Shown piece by piece: positions 1-40,694 of a DNA stretch of 64,000 bases. Under the pieces are notes generated by a model. That model worked only from the letters and a program-made list of their open reading frames with translations, was not told where the DNA came from and made no database searches. Each line of letters begins with the position of its first letter. Within the stretch, counting starts at the first letter, position 1. Made by a program: the position numbers and the translations under genes. Origin of the DNA: Candidatus Woesearchaeota archaeon (GTDB lineage Archaea > Nanobdellota > Nanobdellia > Woesearchaeales > GW2011-AR4); assembly GCA_016180235.1 (NCBI GenBank), contig JACPBQ010000003.1, positions 1-64,000 of the forward strand, read 5' to 3'.

Positions 1-81
1 CCGGTGTTCCGAAGAACCCCTGGACTTGCATGGCTTAATCGAATCCCAATAGCAGCAACCTCCCGCAGGATCAACGGGAAT
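1..81 (-). rRNA. rrs: 16S ribosomal RNA, 5' end (cut by window edge)
   Basis: The reverse complement begins with the archaeal small-subunit rRNA 5' signature: TTCCCGTTGATCCTGCGGG followed by AGGTTGCTGCTATTGGG, then the conserved GATTAAGCCATGCAAGTC. The usual helix-1 CCGG...CCGG is replaced by the compensated CCCG...CGGG. Only about 80 nt lie in the window; the gene continues past position 1. The mature 5' end is placed near 81 by comparison with the consensus ATTCCGG start. The first leader hairpin (77-96) overlaps this end. Confidence 0.93.
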
Positions 82-4111: not shown

Positions 4112-4352
4112 ATACCACCAATGAAACATTGGTGGTATGCACGCGAAAATGCACAGCATTTTCGGTGTCCTGAAAATCCAAAAGGATTTTCATGAAGTAG
4201 TGCTCGAAAACCACCCATCATGTTGGTGGCATTCAGTGAATTGCGAGCAACGAGACAAAACGAAGTTGCTCGTTGCATCTCACTGTCAAAAACCACGCAA
4301 CGTCATAGCTAATAAAAGCATGCCACCCATCTCTGATGGGTGGTTTTTGACA
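4112..4352. repeat. Compound palindromic element A
   Basis: The 407-nt gap between panB and the GH130 gene is filled by nested palindromes. Perfect arms: ATACCACCAATG/CATTGGTGGTAT (4112-4138, loop AAA); CGAAAATGC/GCATTTTCG (4144-4164, loop ACA); TGAAAATCC/GGATTTTCA (4171-4192, loop AAAA); GAGCAAC/GTTGCTC (4245-4271) inside CAGTGA/TCACTG; and CCACCCATC/GATGGGTGG (4323-4343, loop TCT). The last lies near an outer pair TGTCAAAAACCA (4284-4295) / TGGTTTTTGACA (4341-4352). Open frames through it on both strands have no coding character. Confidence 0.85.
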
Positions 4353-23218: not shown

Positions 23219-23338
23219 TCACCTCTTTTCCAGCAATTTTCCGCTGAACTGCAGGTCAAAGCTGTCCTGCTTTCTTAGCGTAAGCTCTTTTATCTGCCTG
23301 TAAAACAGCTCCTTTATTGTTTCGTTGCTTAAATCCAT
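23219..23338 (-). CDS. Micro-ORF 1 of a small-protein operon (39 aa)
   Basis: A 39-residue peptide beginning MDLSNETIKELFYRQIKEL, probably one helix. A strong Shine-Dalgarno, GAGGTGA, ends about 7 nt before the ATG. It is the first of three coupled small frames lying downstream of the interrupted tRNA gene on the same strand. Confidence 0.55.
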   Translation of the reverse strand: MDLSNETIKELFYRQIKELTLRKQDSFDLQFSGKLLEKR

Positions 23339-23374: not shown

Positions 23375-23542
23375 CGCCGCGGCTGGGAGCACTGGGAAAT
23401 TCTCGGAATTTCCGGTGTGCCGAAAATCTCGGATTTTCCAGCATTTCATCCAAGAGGAAATCCATCAAAGGATTTGAACCCAGATACCATTGCTGGCAGG
23501 TGGGTTTCAAGCACCCGCAATACCGGATTATGCGACCGCGGC
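23375..23542 (-). tRNA. Class II (Ser-type) tRNA gene interrupted in the T-arm
   Basis: Minus strand: acceptor GCCGCGG (23536-23542) pairs perfectly with CCGCGGC (23376-23382); U8; D-arm with loop AATCCGGTA containing GG; long variable arm TGCCA-GCAA-TGGTA; T-stem CTGGG and loop TTCAAAT; discriminator G73 as in serine tRNAs. After the T-loop an 84-nt insert (23388-23471) precedes the 3' T-stem CCCAG. The anticodon arm is odd: GGTG/CACC enclose CTTGAAACC. Read as CT-TGA-AA it is tRNA-Ser(UGA); by strict counting it is GAA after a C-C mismatch. It is either a tRNA whose insert is removed or a pseudogene. Confidence 0.6.
23388..23471. repeat. Compound palindromic element C, inside the tRNA gene
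   Basis: On the plus strand: GGAAATTC/GAATTTCC (23395-23413, loop TCG), GAAAATC/GATTTTC (23422-23438, loop TCG) and AAATCC/GGATTT (23458-23475, loop ATCAAA), the last reaching into the T-loop. The linker GGTGTGCC before GAAAATC resembles GGTGTCCT before GAAAATCC in element A. The 84-nt length is set by the T-stem halves on each side. Confidence 0.8.
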
Positions 23543-23550
23543 ATGAAAAA

Positions 23551-23561
23551 GTTTATATACC
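23551..23561 (+). promoter_or_regulatory. TATA-like box between the tRNA gene and tRNA-like fragment
   Basis: GTTTATATACC reads as a TATA box on both strands. On the minus strand it is only about 9 nt from the tRNA 5' end, too close to start transcription there. On the plus strand it would start a transcript near 23582, covering the tRNA-like fragment and its T-tract. Confidence 0.4.
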
Positions 23562-23583
23562 TGTATTGATTATGATGTTTTTA

Positions 23584-23622
23584 GGGTTTCACGCATCCGC
23601 TCTACCGGATTGAGCGGCCTTT
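23584..23622 (-). pseudogene. tRNA-like fragment (D-arm and anticodon-arm copy)
   Basis: The minus strand has D-arm GCTC-AATCCGGTA-GAGC followed by GGATGCGTGAAACCC. This aligns with GCAT-AATCCGGTA-TTGC-GGGTGCTTGAAACCC of the neighbouring class II tRNA, including an identical 9-nt D-loop. No acceptor or T-arm is present; an A-tract replaces the 5' acceptor. It looks like a partial duplicate or tRNA remnant. On the plus strand the same hairpin (CCGCTC/GAGCGG) followed by T-runs could end transcripts. Confidence 0.5.
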
Positions 23623-23666
23623 TTTATTTTTTTAAACTCATATTGAGCTTTCAACTCTTTGTATAG

Positions 23667-23692: not shown

Positions 23693-23955
23693 TAAATTGA
23701 TATTCTGAAATCATCATTCTGAAATTGGGGTTTAGGCAGGGAAGCTTATTTCTAAGACTTCTCCCCTGCCTGCCTCAATATAATAAACCAAAGGGGGTGT
23801 TTAGTTTTGGTGTATAAGCAAATTAATGGTATAAGTCCTTTATATACCTCACGCGAGGATGTCCAGTGATATATGGAGGATGTCCAGTGGTCTGAAAAGC
23901 CGAAATTTTGACAGAATAGGCAAATTTAAATAAAAAAAGAATTAATTCCTGGAGT

Positions 23956-40557: not shown

Positions 40558-40694
40558 GCGAGGCATCGCTGTCTTGCCATGCACAAAAATCTAAGATTTT
40601 TGGCACGTGAAAATGCTCTGCATTTTCTGTGCTGGAAACTTTGTTTCCATGCATCCTGAAAATCTTTGATTTTCATGACATCGCTCTGCCTCGC
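40558..40694. repeat. Compound palindromic element B
   Basis: An outer pair GCGAGGCA (40558-40565)/TGCCTCGC (40687-40694) encloses four perfect hairpins in series: CAAAAATC/GATTTTTG (loop TAA, 40584-40602), GAAAATGC/GCATTTTC (loop TCT, 40609-40627), GGAAAC/GTTTCC (loop TTT, 40634-40648) and TGAAAATC/GATTTTCA (loop TTT, 40657-40675). Two of these arms recur in element A. It sits between a promoter and the 3' end of dtdA. Confidence 0.85.

Follow-up and report, generated by a model that had tools for sequence, protein, structure and literature searches.

Several described systems resemble parts of the locus reported here. In Type VIII toxin-antitoxin modules (SdsR/RyeA, CreTA; PMC12737573, PMC8501985) both partners are RNAs; in the SdsR case the antitoxin is an antisense RNA, the CreT toxin acts on tRNA availability, and the CreTA antitoxin is CRISPR-repeat-like and acts through Cascade. 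The cis-encoded antisense RNAs of type I toxin-antitoxin systems and of plasmid copy control are short molecules with a hairpin and a single-stranded seed, which co-vary with their targets in a paralogue-specific manner. Serine tRNAs that carry a foreign anticodon together with G73 are represented by tRNA-Ser(CAG) of the Candida CUG clade and by engineered mistranslating tRNA-Ser (PMC1991585, PMC6827378), and in yeast a tRNA-Ser with a foreign anticodon is toxic (PMC6827378). Serine identity is known to be independent of the anticodon; in Haloferax volcanii A73 is required for leucine and G73 repels LeuRS, and an A73G change turns human tRNA-Leu into a serine acceptor (PMC9976931). Non-canonical bulge-helix-bulge (BHB) introns, whose removal restores a canonical tRNA, have been reported in Thermoproteales, Nanoarchaeum and ARMAN, where several may occur in one tRNA (PMC4033280). 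No system in which a tRNA with the wrong anticodon is paired to a dedicated antisense RNA was found in the open-access literature.

The locus described here lies in a window of 64,000 nucleotides from a Candidatus Woesearchaeota assembly (archaeal, 1.04 Mb, 81% complete) and shares features with each of these systems. As in Type VIII modules both proposed partners are RNAs, two linked genes being predicted of which one is antisense to the other, and the predicted small RNA (sRNA) is comparable to the antisense antitoxin of SdsR. It differs from those modules in that the proposed toxic RNA is a tRNA acting by miscoding, a toxicity predicted from tRNA identity rules only, and apparently from CreTA in that the sRNA seems to contain no CRISPR repeat and is predicted to pair with the anticodon loop or the variable arm (V-arm). 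The sRNA has the build of the cis-encoded antisense RNAs, with a tRNA as predicted target instead of an mRNA or a replication primer. The tRNA, like those of Candida and the engineered cases, combines a serine-type body and G73 with a foreign anticodon, and the Candida CAG anticodon also occurs among the related loci, hereafter cassettes; unlike those tRNAs, the cassettes are multiple, present at least six anticodons, have a predicted antisense RNA each and imply no codon reassignment. The intron is likewise of the BHB type, and several introns per tRNA also occur in this Woesearchaeota family; in contrast to the introns of PMC4033280, it resides in a serine body with a non-serine anticodon and a linked antisense RNA, and has a palindrome in its 3' splice bulge. 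The chances are evenly balanced, in our judgement, that the locus (Table 1) is a toxin-antitoxin-like two-RNA cassette, in which a serine-charged tRNA for hydrophobic codons would be silenced by a dedicated antisense RNA.

Table 1. Features of the cassette, in window coordinates; the caret marks a predicted splice point
Feature	Position	Strand	Basis
tRNA gene of class II with a serine-type body, a non-serine anticodon and an interruption at 59/60	23375..23542	-	Sequence; covariance model; covariation in relatives
Anticodon 34-36, GAA, would read UUC/UUU (Phe)	23506..23508	-	Phase from alignment with 15 relatives; identical to linked copy
Intron at 59/60, 84 nt, predicted splice AAA^T...C^TCCCAG	23389..23472	-	BHB geometry in relatives; T-loop TTCAAAT restored
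Twin-hairpin insert, 55 nt, within the intron's 3' splice-site bulge	23389..23443	-	Missing from relatives' introns; folds as two hairpins; dispersed related copies in sister genomes
BRE/TATA promoter GAAAAAG TTTATATA (GAAAAAGTTTATATA) of the antisense sRNA	23545..23559	+	Opposite-strand conservation in 28/28 cassettes; spacing
Predicted antisense sRNA, made up of a 5' tail (AGGGTTTCACGCATCC) complementary to the anticodon arm of the tRNA, the hairpin CCGCTC-TACCGGATT-GAGCGG and a T-run terminator	23583..23633	+	Direct repeat; co-variation with linked tRNA
sRNA terminator hairpin, similar to the tRNA D-arm in reverse complement	23597..23617	+	Sequence; alignment of 28 cassettes
Promoter P1 (CACTGGACAT...TATATAAAG), aimed at the tRNA through the sRNA region	23838..23868	-	Precedes many cassettes in conserved form; this genome has three copies
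39-aa ORF, conserved cassette neighbour	23219..23338	-	Found beside cassettes of several genomes and of a second family; without Pfam match

The interrupted tRNA gene and its intron

An earlier note on this DNA had described a class II, Ser-type tRNA gene interrupted in its T-arm, and sequence and covariation agree with it as to the body, acceptor, D-arm, variable arm, T-stem halves, G73 and the place of the interruption. Read from 23542 to 23375, the gene presents the acceptor GCCGCGG/CCGCGGC, GG in the D-arm, a 4-bp variable arm and G73, and between the T-stem halves CTGGG and CCCAG the two halves of the T-loop are 84 nt apart. The 201-nt fold of the locus is more stable than 200 of 200 shuffled sequences (z -4.07). 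The outcome of the tRNA searches, which the earlier note had proposed, depends on the model: ARAGORN and the Rfam tRNA model did not detect the gene, and Rfam at relaxed thresholds returned only chance matches at the locus, whereas a covariance model built from 15 relatives (model R1) detects it with 80 bits (E 7e-14). Among these relatives 96.5% of the cloverleaf cells are paired, against 88.8% after shuffling (0 of 500 shuffles), and 12 pairs have changed on both sides; the free prediction of RNAalifold agrees with the cloverleaf, the T-arm core being paired slightly differently. If the mechanism proposed below holds, many tRNA genes of this kind, which went undetected by standard finders in this analysis, would be additions to the genomes of uncultured archaea.

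The anticodon stem GGTGC/CCACC, with a C31-C39 mismatch, carries the loop TTGAAAC. A reading as tRNA-Ser(UGA), given in the earlier note, had to be abandoned because the phase of stem and loop in the 15 aligned relatives places GAA at positions 34-36. The body has the 12-nt GNRA V-arm, the 9-nt D-loop and the G73 of a genuine tRNA-Ser, but an anticodon that is neither NGA nor GCU. A peptide gene starting from an ATG before the acceptor stem, where 32 codons are open in this genome, was rejected since by inspection the relatives contain in-frame stops; a split tRNA of the Nanoarchaeum type was rejected as both halves belong to one gene, and the upstream copy described below is not a separate tRNA half, as it has no acceptor strand and its promoter and terminator are on the opposite strand. 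The 3' end of an archaeal 16S rRNA gene lies at the window edge (1-81, minus strand).

The intron is placed at 59/60 because splicing there would yield the canonical T-loop TTCAAAT. Its junctions comprise the T-stem CTGGG/CCCAG, a central helix TTCA/TGAA, found complete in 24 of 27 cassettes and in 33 of 41 other class II tRNAs, and two 3-nt bulges (AA^T and AA^T). The register fits 58 of 70 T-arm introns, a number that falls to 0-1 of 70 after sliding by 1-3 nt, which bears out the earlier comparison of the site with non-canonical archaeal tRNA introns. T-arm introns are common in this family, ordinary tRNA-Ser genes included, and at the identical tRNA site the introns of relatives measure 20-38 nt (about 30) against the 84 nt found here. 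Conservation of the T-arm insertion as a BHB intron among relatives makes the split an old one. Recent is only the palindrome of 55 nt (23443-23389), which comprises two hairpins in tandem with CGA loops. Judging from the relatives' introns, from which the insert is missing, a palindromic element has invaded a pre-existing intron. The invasion suggested in the earlier note is therefore retained for these 55 nt, whereas the remainder of what it had taken for 84 nt of hairpins is older intron; its statement that a canonical intron in relatives would refute a recent invasion applies to the T-arm intron and not to the palindrome.

In this genome the copy departs from a strict BHB, its 3' bulge being enlarged by the insert. 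A palindrome at this position probably weakens or kills the tRNA here, with the sRNA gene staying intact, and the insert-bearing tRNA copy may be dead. The proposed likeness of the insert to other palindromes of the window turned out to be modest: a scan allowing 3 mismatches gave 6 matches against 0.5 expected, mostly inside the insert itself, and the only other palindrome among them is at 40658-40674. With BLAST, weak copies of the insert were recovered at other places of this genome, as were several copies in sister genomes. At 4112-4192 perfect hairpins follow one another in a style like that of the insert, and they are among the few strongest of the window.

The predicted opposite-strand small RNA and its match to the tRNA

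The key to the locus, absent from the earlier note, is a repeat, in direct orientation, of the D/anticodon region of the tRNA (23584-23619; 36 nt, 81% identical), which coincides with the predicted sRNA gene. The main set for comparison consists of 28 cassettes from one Woesearchaeota family, and in all 28 an opposite-strand gene is present in the order BRE/TATA, antisense tail, hairpin and T-run. The distance from TATA to the antisense segment is 26-31 nt in 27 of them, the exception having a palindromic insertion in the spacer, and in this genome the predicted sRNA start lies about 24 nt after BRE/TATA. The tRNA begins 9 nt after this TATA box, which was rejected as the promoter of the tRNA for its wrong distance and is assigned to the sRNA because orientation and spacing fit. 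The conserved part of the 28 aligned sRNAs is the D-arm-like terminator hairpin; a box C/D guide RNA was rejected, as C (RUGAUGA) and D (CUGA) boxes are by inspection not conserved among them. The P1 motif, CACTGGACAT-N4-GCGTRA-TATAAAG, was also observed upstream of the MCM helicase gene and of other genes of this genome (L308, L309, L002), and the genes bearing it possibly form a common regulon.

Positions 34 and 36 of the tRNA vary among the cassettes, and in 28 of 28 they equal those of the linked copy (12.6 and 11.9 expected). Positions 32-39 match the copy almost fully and the flanking stem positions less so. The predicted duplex averages -34.7 kcal/mol with the own tRNA and -19.7 kcal/mol with other tRNAs, and in within-genome comparisons the own tRNA-sRNA pair is the stronger in 26 of 26. 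Some of the family cassettes were first identified through a similarity that extended to the copy, a bias from which the sets obtained with the tRNA model alone are free. The pattern of matches and duplex energies is in better accord with antisense pairing than with gene conversion, because the latter would homogenise the D-arm too. The proposition that all cassettes of one genome differ in anticodon held in 13 within-genome pairs and fails in genome G116.

Identity and distribution of the cassette tRNAs

The anticodons of the family cassettes are GAA, GAG, GAC, GAU, CAG and AAG. Their bodies match those of genuine tRNA-Ser (12-nt V-arm with GNRA loop, 9-nt D-loop, G73), with G73 in all whose 3' end is assembled; outside the family the V-arms are more variable, two cassettes being Leu-like and one having A73. 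A35 is found in 55 of 55 cassettes of the anticodon subtype (28 in the family and 27 outside), so that NUN codons (Phe, Leu, Ile, Val) would be read, and the published identity rules applied to these bodies predict serine delivery to hydrophobic codons.

All records bearing the same T-arm signature belong, where named, to Candidatus Woesearchaeota. When 242 genomes of the order were searched with the tRNA covariance model alone, 37 distinct class II matches were obtained beyond the family, a part of them lying in shared arrays. Of the 37, 27 have a linked copy that agrees at 8 or more of 9 core positions, against a chance expectation of about 1.5% estimated from 9-mer statistics, and in 4 more the agreement is poor. 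For at least six Ser-bodied GAG/GAA tRNAs with T-arm introns from other families (L197, L201, L202, L203, L205, L207), no antisense copy was found within about 1.5 kb. In 42 of 43 G73 tRNAs with non-serine anticodons, as against 0 of 40 genuine tRNA-Ser, the 145 nt upstream contain a run of at least 9 nt that recurs in the tRNA; ordinary tRNAs share runs of 5-9 nt with their upstream regions, bar two explained or marginal cases, and no linked copy was found in the genuine Leu(GAG) set, for which this was measured. In a second subtype the tRNAs are Leu-like, class II and with G73, and the upstream copy is matched mainly to the V-arm and not to the anticodon loop (L138, L141, L144, L146-L148, L150, L154, L173, L174, L180, L182, L185, L186); their anticodons are CAA, CAG and UAA, and two tRNAs have GUC or AUC, so that A35 is not universal. 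Genome G147 (L199:1267-3114) has an array of five cassettes, spread over about 2 kb and interleaved with small ORFs, in what appears to be an operon behind P1. One ARAGORN call of tRNA-Phe(GAA) (L008, G000:C9:70744-70841) is actually a tRNA-Leu(GAG) with an intron and A73.

Proposed mechanism and rival explanations

The anatomy of the cassette is strongly supported, and we infer transcription, splicing, charging, toxicity and neutralisation. Comparison gives the anatomy, the intron, the matching of the copy, cognate specificity within genomes and the limitation to tRNAs with non-serine anticodons. In the mechanism proposed, RNA 1 would be a pre-tRNA with a serine-type body (G73, 12-nt GNRA V-arm), a BHB intron at 59/60 and an anticodon for hydrophobic amino acids (A35), and RNA 2 an antisense sRNA of about 40-50 nt, transcribed divergently, whose 5' tail would pair with the anticodon loop of its own tRNA, or with the V-arm in the second subtype, and whose terminator hairpin would mirror the D-arm. 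The spliced tRNA would be charged with serine, since SerRS ignores the anticodon, and would place serine at Phe/Leu/Ile/Val codons and poison the proteome, while the sRNA would sequester or destroy it. A toxic tRNA with a silencing sRNA would make the pair act as an RNA-RNA toxin-antitoxin or as a tightly gated mistranslation module. The wider proposal, that the whole archaeal order carries RNA-only toxin-antidote families, with serine-charged tRNAs opposed by RNAs antisense to the anticodon loop or V-arm and each pair specific to itself, is put forward tentatively, its chances being slightly short of even. If the mechanism is true, genetic-code fidelity itself would serve as a weapon or switch, and the cassettes would provide natural, cognate-specific RNA parts for silencing single tRNAs; whether selection maintains natural mistranslating tRNAs becomes directly testable. 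Several observations speak against the toxin-antitoxin-like reading. In contrast to typical addiction modules, the loci look stably inherited beside the same genes and not mobile, and when viral contigs were scanned for the T-arm signature no match was obtained. Also weighing against it are the GAG/GAA tRNAs for which no linked copy was found, the four poor matches, the GUC and AUC anticodons, the possibly dead copy of this genome and the unpaired 31-39 of many cassettes.

The main rival is a regulated, useful mistranslation, in which the same two RNAs would operate, the tRNA being turned on weakly or in response to stress so as to diversify proteins and the sRNA being a regulator and not a selfish module's antidote. 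The loci are kept beside fixed neighbours (the 39-aa ORF in two families) and P1 is common to the MCM gene, which suggests integration into host regulation, and Candida tRNA-Ser(CAG) illustrates that such a tRNA can be tolerated (PMC1991585). However, inserts and one deletion break several copies, and anticodons change fast at the same locus, so that no fixed codon is served: at the equivalent site upstream of the 39-aa ORF the anticodon is GAA here and in G020, GAC in G017 and AAG in G012. We regard this explanation as rather unlikely. The deletion is that of the sister species G001, where P1 and the ORF are kept and the terminator side of the sRNA is fused via AAGGTTGATACCC to the 3' part of the tRNA, a junction that we read as recombination between the two copies, in which the sRNA promoter was lost along with the 5' half of the tRNA. 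Frequent cassette breakage fits a dispensable or harmful tRNA, and the joint loss fits a pair whose antidote cannot go first, one deletion not being proof.

It is quite improbable that the tRNA is instead a non-decoding, tRNA-like decoy, sponge or structural RNA, with the sRNA-tRNA pairing serving another purpose. Positions 31-39 are unpaired in many cassettes, some have G21, and A34 anticodons, which are unusual in archaea, occur; on the other side the full cloverleaf, the intron that restores the T-loop, the nearly invariable U33 and G73 are kept by covariation, and the A35 of all 55 anticodon-subtype cassettes suggests that decoding matters. Charging with leucine, or editing, by which hydrophobic residues would be replaced by leucine only and the sRNA would tune the tRNA supply, would agree with A35 being common to all Leu anticodons and with the Leu anticodons and longer V-arms of the V-arm subtype. 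The main subtype has a Ser-type V-arm, however, and G73 in the family cassettes stands against A73 in the genuine tRNA-Leu of the family, as within G025, where a genuine Leu(UAA) with A73 is found alongside UAA cassettes with G73; as G73 repels LeuRS in Haloferax (PMC9976931), leucine charging is considered distinctly improbable. An ordinary pseudogene, that is, a tRNA-Ser killed by the palindromic insertion with the upstream repeat left by chance partial duplication or gene conversion, could explain the disrupted BHB of this genome and the palindromic inserts of several other cassettes, but it is very improbable indeed given that cassettes are present with covariation in most family genomes and in other families, that the promoter spacing is fixed, and that identity is kept in the anticodon loop (or V-arm) alone and not in the D-arm copies, a pattern that gene conversion would not produce.

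Palindromic inserts were also observed in the T-loop, acceptor or leader of several other cassettes. A recurrent one (ATGCGAGTGAGC...GCTCACAA) is located at the border of V-arm and T-stem in L103, L104, L140, L142, L182 and L088, and could be a mobile intron. In G030 (L021/L092) a palindrome of about 60 nt, accompanied by what looks like an ATGCC target duplication, has been inserted between the promoter of the sRNA and the tRNA, and at L074 (G010:C4:50300-51400) an intact tRNA-Ser(CGA) appears to be nested in the T-loop palindromic insertion of a second tRNA-Ser(CGA).
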